From Entophlyctis helioformis (lineage: Eukaryota; Chytridiomycota; Chytridiomycetes; Chytridiales; Chytriomycetaceae), in contig JAHLKH010000076.1 in assembly GCA_025526915.1 (NCBI GenBank), positions 1-64,000 of the forward strand: DNA of 64,000 bases. The letters are read 5' to 3'. Both the position numbers and the translations under genes were made by a program. This document shows, in pieces, positions 59,858-64,000 of the stretch (positions are counted from its first letter, which is position 1; every line of letters begins with the position of its first letter). Under the pieces are notes generated by a model. The model ran no database searches. It had not been told where the DNA came from and worked only from the letters and a program-made list of their open reading frames with translations.

Positions 59858-59954
59858 TTCCGGTTTGTCCGTCAACCTGGGCCCGATATTGATACAATTA
59901 CCAAGGATTTTGGAGTTAAATTCGACCAGAGAGGCGACGGATGCAAGCCCACAT

Positions 59955-59966
59955 ATCACGTGATTG
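59955..59966. repeat. Left 12-bp motif of an imperfect inverted pair flanking Fanzor
   Basis: ATCACGTGATTG. Its reverse-complement partner at 63164-63175 differs at one position. It contains the palindromic E-box core CACGTG, so both a terminal-repeat and a regulatory reading are possible. Confidence 0.35.
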
Positions 59967-60058
59967 AAGGTTCGAGTCAGCAACGAGCATGCGACGACAG
60001 GCGGGCGAGGCACATCCAACAAGCATCTCACCTTCTATTGAAGTGACCCGTTAGGTCG

Positions 60059-60076
60059 ATCGGGAGGTGCCCCGAT
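60059..60076 (-). ncRNA. Hairpin abutting the Fanzor stop codon (candidate guide-RNA scaffold or terminator)
   Basis: On the coding (minus) strand the sequence directly after the TGA at 60079-60077 is ATCGGG, a six-base loop (GCACCT), then CCCGAT: a perfect 6-bp stem. In TnpB and Fanzor systems the guide RNA overlaps the 3' end of the gene and the element end, so this is where a guide scaffold would be expected. A 3'-UTR stem or chance pairing are the alternatives. Confidence 0.35.
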
Positions 60077-62993
60077 TCAAAGTGTTGTTGTTGGCAGACA
60101 TGGCAGCATGATCTGATCCCATGAGGCCACATGCGACTTGAAGGGAAGCAGATCAGGTGACGGAGGCTGCTGGACGACAGGCTGATCAGGCGGTGTCGCG
60201 AGCAGCATGATGTGATGTTGTGCACGCCGCTGGATGTCATGATGAGTTGCCTCAATGTCTGCAAGGTACTCTTGCGTGGCTGGATTGCTGTCAGGTGGCG
60301 TGTGCGTCAAGTAGAGCGGTCGTTGTCCATAGAGCAGATGCCACAGTGCGACCATCCCGATGTTGGTGGCTCCAAGAACGTCTCGGTGGTAGACGGTCTT
60401 GCAGTCTGTGCACTCGTAGCGTCGCAGGTTGGTGCGGTTCTTGTCTGGGATCCGCTGCTTGCACTGCGGGCACATCTGGCTGGTCAGGTTCTCGTTGCAG
60501 CGGTAGATCTGTGTGTGTGTGGTGCATGATCGTGTGGTCAGTTGGTGCACAGATGGATGGATGGCATCAGACGCACATAGGCATATCCAGACGACCGCAG
60601 ATGCCTGATGAGAAACTTCTCAAACACAGCGTGCCGGCCACCTTGGCCTGTAAAGTCGATGCCAAATGCCCACACAACGGGAATGTTGTCCTTTGCCGGC
60701 TTTGTTCGGTCGACAGGGAGGCCTTGAGATGCATCGGATGCACGCTCTCCAGTCTTTGATCCTGCCAGCTTCATGATGCCCTCAAGAGCGTTTCCGCGAT
60801 CAGACGTGCTGTTGCTGCGCATGGTGAACCGCTTGGCCTTGACCTTCTGTGGAATGCCATGCCATGCCATGCCATGCCATGCAGCACGATCAGCAGGCAA
60901 TCAAGCAGCATGGCGGTCATGTCAATGGGCATCCAGAAACAGAGAAAACGTACCTGTGCATTCAGGAATGGCGTGCAGTACGCATGGCAGCGCAGATCCC
61001 AAAAGGCTCTCTCGCCAGGCTTGACGTTTGGATTGGCATGCTTTGCTGTCTTGAATGCAATCGCCTTGTGGATGTCGGCTGCCTTGGCATATCGATTGTT
61101 GAGCCTGGCACAAGAGACAGGCACTGTGAGTTGATCTGGTCAAGAGTGCGCGTGGCAGAGTCATTGCATGCATACCACCGCTGAAGGCTGTGCTCGGCTC
61201 GTGCCATGCCAGAGGAGAGCACGTAGTTGGACTCGAGGGTATAGGTGAAGGTTGCCAGATCGACCAGCATGCTGGACGCGCCATACATGTACCGCTCGCC
61301 CCAATCAATGCCGACAATACGCACAAACCGGTAGCCCTTGTTGGTGAACAACTTGTTGGCTTTGACAATGTTGAGCAATCGCTGCGAGGTGTAGAAGCTG
61401 AGCTTGCCCTGTCATGCCATGACATGAGTGAGGAATGTGCAATGCATGTGCACCAATGCGCGAGTTTAGCATGCAAGTGACTTACAGGATTGGTCGCTTT
61501 TGGCTTGGTGGCTGATGGGTCGGCAGGATTGGCGGCTGTGGATGGCATGTCAGTCGGTGTGGACAACAAGTGCGCGTCTGGATTGGCACAGCAACTCACA
61601 TTCGCCATCCAAGTGATCATGCCCATCATCAGCCTCATCGTCATCATCATCAGAATCATCATCATTGTCAGGCATGCCATCAGCAAGGCTGGGCTGCTCG
61701 CCTAAAGATGCCATGTTGGAGCATGCAGATCAAGGCGGCAGTCAGAACCAATGTGTGCACCAAAGCATTCAAGCACGCCACATACTGCGAGGCGACTCTG
61801 GACGGTCTGTGCGATAGTCCAGCGCCAGCTGAAAGATGCTGTATCCGTCCGTCCGGAAGCTGCCCACCGCGGTCGGTTTGCTTGGAATTGCAGGAGGAAG
61901 ACCATCGATCACGGCGTCTATAAACTCCTGGCGCTCCTTGTCAACCAGACCCTTGTGCTCAGCCAGTTGCATCGCATCAGCAATGACTGCGTCATTTGCT
62001 TGGACCTGCTCAAACACCTCCTTGTCGGCCTCGTCTGGCGTCTGATAGCGGCCTTTCTTGGGGCGGAGGCCGGGAAGGAGTATGTTGAGGATACAGAGCT
62101 CCTTGCTATTGCTGAACGCCTTCTTGATCGTCGTGTTGGATGACGCGAGGCCCAAGCTGGCTTTTTGGTAGTCTTGGATAAAAGTGCAGTGTCAGCATCA
62201 TATCATGTAGACATGGCATAAACAGGCAGTGCGACCTACTGAGTACAGCAAGGAGCTGCAGTCGCAAGTATGCCAAAGCAGCACTTTGCTCGCCACGGAT
62301 GCGATCATCACTACTCCCCATCACCGCCCAAAAGAGCGTTGTCTCGGTGATGAGGATGAAGGGATCGCGGCTGGCTGCTTGCGGGCACAGCTTGTTTGTT
62401 GTGCCAGCAAGCTTGGACAGCTCGTAAAAGATCACGATCTCTGACCGAGACACATCAGGCACAAGCGTCTTGAGCTCGTGCAGCTCTTGCGGGACTGTAT
62501 CAATACCGCTGTCCTCAGTGGCTGAGGAAGAGCTGGATGCCGCGTCCTTGGTGGTGGCTGCCTTCCTGCCCCGTCGCTTCTTGGGCCTGCCGCCCTTGTT
62601 GGCTGACGAAGAGGTGGACCGGCCCCGCTTGAGACTTGAGGTGGGAGGAGCAGTGTCCAAAGTGGCCAGCGGTGTGGCGTCCTTGATTGCTGGTGGTGTA
62701 GCGTCCTTGGCAGCCTTGGCAGCAGCAGCCTTGGCGGTCTTGAAAAGTGCCGCAATCCACACTCTCACATCCTCAATGGATGCACTGGGCATCATCTTGA
62801 GGGCTGCAGTGACGGCCAGCTCAGACTGGCTAGAGATGTAGTGCCGCGCGAGCATGCCACACACATCCCTGGCCAGATTGCTGTAAATGTCATGCCTTGC
62901 ATCCGTGCAAAGGCTGCCATCAAGCCTGTAGGGCAAGACAGCCTCCATAGTGCCCGCGTGCACAGCGTCTGCCGTCTGTGCACTTGTGTGCAT
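60077..62993 (-). CDS. Fanzor (eukaryotic TnpB-like RNA-guided nuclease), intact
   Basis: Eight exons: complement(join(60077..60508,60577..60846,60954..61104,61176..61408,61486..61535,61600..61701,61786..62172,62240..62993)), 792 aa, all phases consistent and no frame break. The N-terminus is Ala/Ser-rich with a strong basic nuclear-localisation cluster (NKGGRPKKRRGRKAATTK). An acidic Asp run (DNDDDSDDDDDEADD) lies near residues 390-410. RuvC-I is in RIVGIDWGERYMYG (Asp466). A central block PVVWAFGIDFTGQGG precedes RuvC-II with Glu655 in RCNENLTSQMCPQC. The zinc finger has Cys662, Cys665, Cys682 and Cys685. RuvC-III is YHRDVLGATNIG (Asp692). This order and the CPQC...C..C...HRD-GA-NI signature are those of TnpB/Fanzor. 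Seven spliceosomal introns indicate long residence in a eukaryotic nucleus (Fanzor1-like). The frame stays open upstream to 63065, so the start is tentative. Confidence 0.88.
60855..60882. repeat. ATGCC pentanucleotide repeat in a Fanzor intron
   Basis: About five ATGCC units within the intron between exons 6 and 7 of the Fanzor gene. Confidence 0.75.
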
Positions 62994-63065
62994 CAAGGCC
63001 GACAGCTCTGCATCTGCCTGCACCACGGCTGACAGGATCGCGTCGGCCTGGATTGTCACCGTCAA

Positions 63066-63502
63066 TCAACGATCTTAGCTCAGGTAGGGAGGGATCAGAC
63101 CGCAATAAGATAGCTTAATTCTATGGAAAGAACGCAAGAGCCACAACGCGAAGCCACAGATCCCAGTCACGTGATCTTGGCTGCGGAATACAACGAGAAG
63201 CGTTGATACCTCCTTTTCCTGGGTGCCGTGGAACCAACCGAGACATATTTCGGCAACGGACTGCCGATGAGGTGACCACAACAAGACGCGGTAGAGGCTT
63301 TGGAGGAGACGGCTGGCTAGAAGCGACGGGTATAACGGCCCGGACGGACGCGGCAGACGTGCAGACCAAGAGACGGAATGGATAGAATGGCCAGAATGGA
63401 CACAACCAGGAGATTGGTACGGGTAGAGTGGACGCGATGGAAGAGCCAGGAGATCGAAAGAAGAGATTGTGGTGGACCAGGAGGATGCAGCGTGGCGTGG
63501 CG
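63066..63502. other. Region upstream of Fanzor without a supported gene
   Basis: About 440 bases with somewhat lower GC. It contains the right 12-bp motif at 63164-63175. Open frames here lack convincing coding character. Confidence 0.4.
63164..63175. repeat. Right 12-bp motif of the inverted pair flanking Fanzor
   Basis: CAGTCACGTGAT, the reverse complement of ATCACGTGACTG; 11 of 12 bases match the left motif at 59955-59966. The two bracket a 3.2-kb segment containing the whole Fanzor coding region. Confidence 0.35.
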
Positions 63503-64000
63503 TTACGCGGTGGAATGAGACGGTGTGACATGGCGCAGAGCGACGTGGCGCGACAAGACGGACGCGTCGGAAGAGGCCAGAGACGGAGAGCCGAGACGAG
63601 AGGAAGACTGGAAGTGCACAGCGTGTGGAACGACGCCAAGTACAATGGATAGCAGCACGGCCGGCGTCGCCTTGTCTGGCGTGAGGATTGCGACCTTGTA
63701 CTCGCTCTGGGGGTCTGCCGCGACGCGCACCAACGCGTTGCCACGGCCTGTCCTTGGTAGTGGGCTCGCAGCATCCATGGAGATCTGCTGGAACGGTACT
63801 TGGGCGTGCACCACGGGACATGAGCGGCGTGGACACTTGATGACGGAGCTCAGCGTCCTTGTGTGCCAGGCTCCAGAAGTGGACTCTACTCTTGCCACTC
63901 CGACGGCCGAGGCGTTGAGGAGCGACCAACTGCCGTGCGGCAACACGCAGACTCGGTGGAGGATGATGGTATGCGATCTGTTGCCCATTGCAGGTCGTGA
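63503..64000 (-). CDS. Unidentified partial ORF at right edge
   Basis: The frame is open from the right edge to 63503 and may extend beyond it; an in-frame ATG is at 63988. Codon third positions favour C/G, as in neighbouring genes, at least down to about 63640. Visible features are a possible zinc-binding pair in IKCPRRSCPVVHAQ and a block LVRVAADPQSEYKVAILTPD. The 3' part (Ser/His-rich) looks less coding-like, so an intron donor may lie near 63640. I do not recognise the family. It could be a host gene or part of a mobile element next to Fanzor. Confidence 0.35.
   Translation of the reverse strand, partial: SRPAMGNRSHTIILHRVCVLPHGSWSLLNASAVGVARVESTSGAWHTRTLSSVIKCPRRSCPVVHAQVPFQQISMDAASPLPRTGRGNALVRVAADPQSEYKVAILTPDKATPAVLLSIVLGVVPHAVHFQSSSRLGSPSLASSDASVLSRHVALRHVTPSHSTA

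Follow-up and report, generated by a model that had tools for sequence, protein, structure and literature searches.

The window analysed here comprises 64,000 nucleotides of the chytrid Entophlyctis helioformis (assembly GCA_025526915.1, contig JAHLKH010000076.1, positions 1 to 64,000; hereafter C76) and carries on its minus strand, around a gene at 62993 to 60077, the 3' portion of a single DNA transposon copy, disabled by another element that splits its N-terminal coding region. The family has terminal inverted repeats (TIRs) and 8-bp target duplications, and its right gene is predicted to encode a TnpB/Fanzor-type nuclease, beside which fuller sister copies carry a second, left gene. Taken as a whole, an account in which this TIR transposon bears Fanzor-type and FEN-like genes, its window copy is disabled and intact sisters are copied in by guided cleavage is very likely to be correct.

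Ends, duplications and copy number

Matches to PF07282 (Cas12f1-like TNB zinc-finger domain) occur at at least 150 scored places in the 29.57-Mb assembly, and end patterns at up to three mismatches occur at 170 right and 86 left sites, so that further copies, which the original prediction from sequence had proposed to seek, do exist. Two of the 86 left sites coincide with right-end sites, and the reversed patterns had no site in the genome at the same tolerance. Full-length copies are 92–95% identical to window DNA, with the match starting at window 63063; in the 18 copies with this anchor, mutual homology continues upstream across the 1.6–2 kb compared and, in C172 and C122, which were examined further, to about -5.8 and -6.0 kb.

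The element is bounded by imperfect 23-bp inverted repeats (left GGCCCGGTTCTCATACCATTACC, right GGCCCGATATTCATACAATTACC) that match at 19 of 23 positions when inverted, the right end being GGTAATTGTATGAATATCGGGCC in the end alignment. Of 46 end pairs compared, 25 carry 8-bp target duplications that agree at 7 or more positions, 14 of them being exact, against 13 of 2070 swapped pairs that reach a 7-of-8 octamer match. The 46 pairs exclude five with damaged left ends (C122, C158, C168, C172 and C36) and retain some duplicates, for example C297/C67, C35b/C436 and C18b/C272. Their end-to-end distance is 7.2–9.8 kb in 32, below 2.2 kb in 4 and above 10 kb in 10.

Structure of the Fanzor-type gene

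The rebuilt gene has eight exons totalling 2,379 nt, equivalent to 792 codons and a stop with no internal stop, separated by seven GT-AG introns of 64–107 bp each. The coordinates, phase and catalytic residues (D466, E655 and D692) given in the original prediction were recovered, and its zinc finger and basic cluster are likewise present in the translation, as Cys pairs 661/664 and 681/684 and GGRPKKRRGRK. The features of the element in the window are as follows:

62240..62993, minus strand: exon 1, from the ATG of the original prediction, taken as internal since the sister-copy frame extends upstream
61786..62172, minus strand: exon 2 (rebuilt spliced model, as for exons 3 to 7)
61600..61701, minus strand: exon 3, acidic
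61486..61535, minus strand: exon 4
61409..61485, minus strand: intron 4, source of a 27-mer with 170 genome places
61176..61408, minus strand: exon 5, RuvC-I; D466 codon at 61306-61304, followed by W and G
61105..61175, minus strand: intron 5, source of a 27-mer with 177 genome places
60954..61104, minus strand: exon 6
60577..60846, minus strand: exon 7
60077..60508, minus strand: exon 8; E655 codon 60493-60491, zinc finger C661-C684 60475-60402, D692 codon 60382-60380, stop
59880..60076, minus strand: 3' region to the right end of the element, putative place of the omega/reRNA scaffold (comparison of copies)
59880..59902, minus strand: right TIR, GGTAATTGTATCAATATCGGGCC (end alignment, genome pattern search)
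59872..59879, minus strand: CAGGTTGA, first 8 flanking bases and place of the 8-bp target duplication (flank comparison)
63060..63063, minus strand: GACG, 4-bp duplication at the right side of the insertion (comparison with sister copies)
63064..64000, minus strand: window portion of the 2,874-bp insertion with 145-bp direct terminal repeats

The splice sites were compared in an alignment of 23 rows, the window included, of which 21 are close to it. All seven donors are kept in 23 of 23 rows and all seven acceptors in 19, with L018, L031, C102 and C219 each without one as aligned. This conservation across copies, together with diversity of 0.040, 0.031 and 0.057 at codon positions 1, 2 and 3 among close copies, places the gene model beyond chance. 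Several joins are shared with host-annotated proteins (exons 1–2 in P0007, 5–6 and 6–7 in P0001, 7–8 in P0004), and some of these proteins splice differently, such as P0002, which runs into intron 7. The frame is open from the ATG at 62993 to the terminal stop in 5 of the 21 close rows (the window, L017, L022, L024 and L027).

The window copy is split

In 18 of 18 sister copies with the 63063 anchor the frame continues without a stop upstream of this ATG for 110 nt or more. In the aligned sequence there, L022 and C102 share an open frame over 109 codons (dN 0.303, dS 1.082), and across the region -360..0 diversity among close copies is highest at third positions (0.018, 0.029 and 0.039 at positions 1, 2 and 3). 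Because this upstream frame is conserved, the ATG at 62993 is taken as internal and the native coding region of the window copy appears to be split. Homology to full-length copies begins at 63063, where an insertion interrupts the upstream frame; as element homology resumes at C76 65938-68344, with 97.5% identity to C172, the intervening C76 63064-65937 is an insertion. It is 2,874 bp long, extends past the window end, and has 145-bp direct terminal repeats (142/145 identical) and a 4-bp GACG duplication; Pfam gave nothing at E 0.01 on its window part. A 5' truncation of the window copy was ruled out, its 5' stop being the insertion point.

Homology to C172 stops at C76 68804 (relative position -2591) in sequence read to 73500. 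Up to C76:73500, most of the left gene, the left end and the left partner of the CAGGTTGA flanking octamer were not found, and none of the 86 left sites found genome-wide lies on C76. The gene described in the original prediction as intact and probably active is therefore split, with no left inverted end found on its contig. Recent activity can be retained for the family, whose copies are 92–95% identical and include four sisters (L017, L022, L024, L027) open from the same internal ATG to a terminal stop, whereas probable activity finds no support for the window copy itself.

Around the window copy, a 268-bp repeat with TG..CA ends is inserted at C76 68345-68612 (L079), in its left part, and a related stretch lies about 450 bp further out, at C76 69069-69320. 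On the other side, a saccharopine-dehydrogenase-like gene (PF03435, E 5e-13) runs on the minus strand from window 59857 down. It starts about 20 bp past the right end of the element, so the element may separate this gene from its original promoter.

The seven introns had been read in the original prediction as a hint of long nuclear residence or host retention. That the gene is a host-retained (domesticated) Fanzor is very unlikely: its frame is uninterrupted between 62993 and 60077 and the 3' end of the element lies just ahead of the saccharopine-dehydrogenase-like gene, but the same gene with the same introns occurs in many copies bearing transposon ends, the window copy is one of at least 170 such right ends, and its N-terminal coding region is split. 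Since close copies have the seven introns in common, these introns predate the expansion of the family. Start-codon proximity also shows no trend among 31 independent right flanks (the remainder after six duplicate flanks were dropped), an ATG lying within 60 nt in 19 of them and, antisense, in 18; a preference for insertion at gene starts was accordingly rejected. An element of LINE or Helitron type, with constant right ends and left ends cut back, would agree with the fixed 5' point at which window homology at first appeared to end, with the long left duplications and damaged left end at C172 and C36, and with the 5'-truncated Helitron-borne Fanzor1 elements described in passages of PMC3627910. 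It is extremely improbable and is held refuted for the family by the paired inverted ends and 8-bp duplications; in addition, the 5' stop of the window copy is an insertion point and the introns are retained. A LINE-like target-primed insertion, prompted by a 15-bp left/right match at C172, was dropped on the same grounds of TIRs and 8-bp duplications.

Family identity and divergence

The window protein matches PF07282 at 42.7 bits (cut-off 26.3, E 6.5e-11), which bears out, by the profile search that the original prediction had suggested, its placement of a TnpB/Fanzor-type nuclease gene in what proves to be a chytrid host. The predicted protein has a split RuvC domain with D, E and D around the zinc finger, the three residues being invariant in a 7-row alignment, and the RuvC-II Glu is in the shifted Fanzor position (E655, six residues ahead of the zinc finger, whose first Cys is 661). 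Passages of PMC10711439 give the strict Fanzor fingerprint as this Glu position together with, 'near exclusively', DPG at RuvC-I, and describe two shifted-Glu clades, one D-Phi-G and one DPG, with Fanzors falling in the latter. All family members read that include RuvC-I (the window, L001-L005, L008, P0001 and P0007-P0010) have DWG. Half of the strict fingerprint is thus present in the translations, and because RuvC-I reads DWG while the Glu position fits, the predicted nuclease is termed Fanzor-type and is not filed as a strict Fanzor; the earlier assignment holds for the superfamily and the shifted Glu and fails at DPG. PDB sequence searches gave no significant row, and an AlphaFold model of exon 8 alone (pLDDT 42.7) was not used.

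In 42 of 44 comparisons of the window with seven diverged copies, the introns of this gene have changed less than the exons beside them; the comparisons share one reference and are not independent, so their p value should be read with caution. Nine sequences give diversities of 0.078, 0.149 and 0.126 in introns 1–3 against 0.213, 0.318 and 0.341 in exons 1–3, and 0.051–0.083 in introns 4–7 against 0.084–0.206 in exons 5–8, with exons 6 and 7 at 0.084 and 0.096 and the 3' region at 0.127. Introns and exons thus differ strongly over the N-terminal half and modestly near catalytic exons 6 and 7. Within the RuvC block, the 97 fourfold sites in invariant codons show a diversity of 0.120, and the third positions of variable codons one of 0.212. 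The intron 4 27-mer has 170 genome places (89 exact), the intron 5 27-mer has 177 at up to three mismatches, and a 27-mer from the catalytic (zinc-finger) exon has 221, the latter two being exact throughout among the matches listed. Either the introns are under constraint, or diversifying selection maintains ancient variants of the exons while recombination homogenises the remainder, as in MHC genes.

Slow introns through a function of their own, for example as small or guide-like RNAs, rather than through fast exons, are possible if somewhat unlikely. Introns 4–7 vary less than the fourfold sites of invariant codons and more than half of the intron 4 matches are exact, but introns 2 and 3 are less slow, exons 6 and 7 come near the introns, repeats within introns 6 and 7 vary, and the variable-codon third positions would also fit old exon variants with recombination. 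The DWG motif raises a separate alternative, in which the gene goes back to a shifted-Glu TnpB of D-Phi-G type that was captured independently by a eukaryote, and does not descend from known DPG Fanzors. Each RuvC-I read in the family has this motif, the Glu lies six positions ahead of the zinc finger, and a shifted-Glu D-Phi-G clade exists beside the DPG clade that holds Fanzors (PMC10711439, in the passages cited above). However, one P-to-W substitution in a rapidly evolving Fanzor1 would give the same picture, and the scored candidates contained no outside homologue from which to build a tree; we regard such a capture as unlikely.

The left gene and a proposed mechanism

The structure model of the left gene matches the 5'-nuclease fold of FEN1, EXO1 and T4 RNase H, and its acidic residues stand in what we take to be the order expected for FEN-type 5'-nucleases. 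The weak model indicates that the left protein probably has a FEN/EXO1-type 5'-nuclease fold. XPG_I_2 scored 15.3–17.2 bits on 4 of 4 left-gene proteins scanned, under its cut-off of 24.2, and other Pfam scans for the XPG family gave no match in the left gene; XPG_I has four matches in the genome itself, none at a known place of the element. As in the right gene, introns are slow: in four between-subfamily pairs they differ by K 0.106–0.124 (L082/L037 introns), against dS 0.514–0.602 and dN 0.142–0.181. Near the left end, about 1.4 kb (L037 4777-6155) is 94% identical between C172 and C219 and the next 2.9 kb 75%, as if the former had been swapped or were strongly constrained.

In the proposed mechanism, an intact sister copy would supply a Fanzor-type protein that binds RNA transcribed from the 3' region through the right TIR, the 3' tail of this RNA, derived from the flank, acting as guide. 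The nuclease-RNA complex would cleave a homologous empty site, repair templated by the occupied chromosome would restore an element copy, and the FEN-like protein might trim 5' flaps or ends in that repair or in transposition. Passages of PMC10711439 report that published Fanzor1 reRNAs include the TIR and duplication at this end of the element. The last 197 bp of the window copy are identical to C102 at 0.913, to C219 at 0.888 and to five further copies at 0.83–0.89, and are less conserved than the catalytic exons in the comparison of the window with diverged copies.

Several results weigh against this account. Besides the absence of DPG, 21 of the 46 end pairs lack a 7-of-8 duplication, Pfam recognised no transposase in the element pieces searched, which are a subset of all frames, and neither gene had an outside homologue among scored candidate sets of 7999, 4299 and 8000, limited to proteins within the search length limits. 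The left-gene model is of low confidence (mean pLDDT 49.6), and Pfam and PDB sequence searches gave no match to FEN proteins. The 3' region varies more than the introns when close copies are compared (0.078 vs 0.039); its RNA fold gave z from -1.57 to +1.43 in five sequences (window +1.43), and compensatory change was seen in 0 of 21 predicted pairs across 33 sequences. Neither folding nor covariation gave a signal of RNA structure at the 3' end; Rfam gave one match, below gathering score (E 0.12).

A further-reaching version is a two-nuclease element, in which a TnpB-type nuclease of non-DPG lineage and a transposon-borne FEN/EXO1-like 5'-nuclease would cut empty sites and steer gap repair, the proteins diversifying under host conflict while introns and ends stay near constant. 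We consider it speculative and rather improbable.

Comparison with known systems

Portions of three papers (PMC3627910, PMC10432273, PMC10711439) already place Fanzor genes in TIR transposons, in chytrids and at high copy. The closest comparison is SPu-1/SpuFz1 (Fanzor1) of Spizellomyces punctatus, described in the first two as a multi-copy element with inverted ends and a RuvC-type nuclease that is RNA-guided in vitro; the E. helioformis element shares the chytrid host, the multi-copy state, the inverted ends and the predicted RuvC-type nuclease. SPu-1, of about 2.1 kb, has one ORF and is flanked by a TA duplication, whereas the present element, mostly 7.2–9.8 kb, has seven introns, an 8-bp duplication, a second gene and DWG. 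ROr-4, PBl-3 and MCi-4 of Mucoromycota (MuDR-like Fanzor1) are also fungal DNA transposons with TIRs and long duplications, with no transposase encoded according to passages of PMC3627910, but have 9-bp duplications and MuDR-like TIRs, where the E. helioformis element has 8 bp, other TIRs and a FEN-like gene. CMe-1A of Cyanidioschyzon merolae, in the same source a Fanzor element of unknown class present in about 150 copies, is similar in being numerous and differs in its size of about 3 kb and lack of TIRs. The left-gene model shares its fold with the FEN1/EXO1/T4 RNase H superfamily, but the gene falls below every family cut-off and sits within a transposon. In the literature searched, seen in part, we came across no such linked FEN/EXO1-like gene, no DWG variant and no slow introns, and nothing joined Fanzor and XPG; of papers naming Entophlyctis helioformis, none concerned transposons, judged by title.

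The family bears on why eukaryotic transposons retain RNA-guided nucleases, and its DWG in place of DPG on the claim of a single bacterial clade origin for Fanzors. As a resource it has at least 170 right ends within a 29.6-Mb chytrid genome. Its borders are exact, its insertion sites number in the dozens, the Fanzor exons are open in several copies and a repair-type nuclease gene is linked, so that guide, motif and outcome of repair are accessible both to reading from genomes and to testing.

Flanks and atypical copies

In the 31 independent right flanks, A is enriched at positions 2 (22/31) and 4 (21/31), and CARA occurs in 8. A CARA-like start was rejected as a target-adjacent motif: because these bases persist next to the right end of the inserted copy, a transposase preference is likelier.

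Copies with damaged left ends, L044 (C36), L037 (C172), L054 (C219), L040 (C5) and L131 (C193), have about 3–25 bp of right-flank sequence after the left duplication, mostly judged by eye, as if a broken empty site had joined an incompletely copied element. Abortive RNA-guided homing was considered as the source of these long left duplications and would fit C219 (8+3 bp) and, by eye, C36 (8+25), C172 (8+7), C5 and C193; it was rejected, since C75 and C14, with large left losses, show none. C58, C40 and C292 could not be judged.

Short end-to-end copies of about 1.0–2.2 kb are L135/L070 (C109), L136/L140 (C35), L103/L120 (C436) and L101/L118 (C199), those at C35 and C109 retaining the zinc-finger exon 27-mer. 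L023, L025, L029 and L032 (C36, C122, C60 and C408) have one common right flank, while the left flanks of C60 and C122 differ, which may reflect segmental duplication or one-ended repair.
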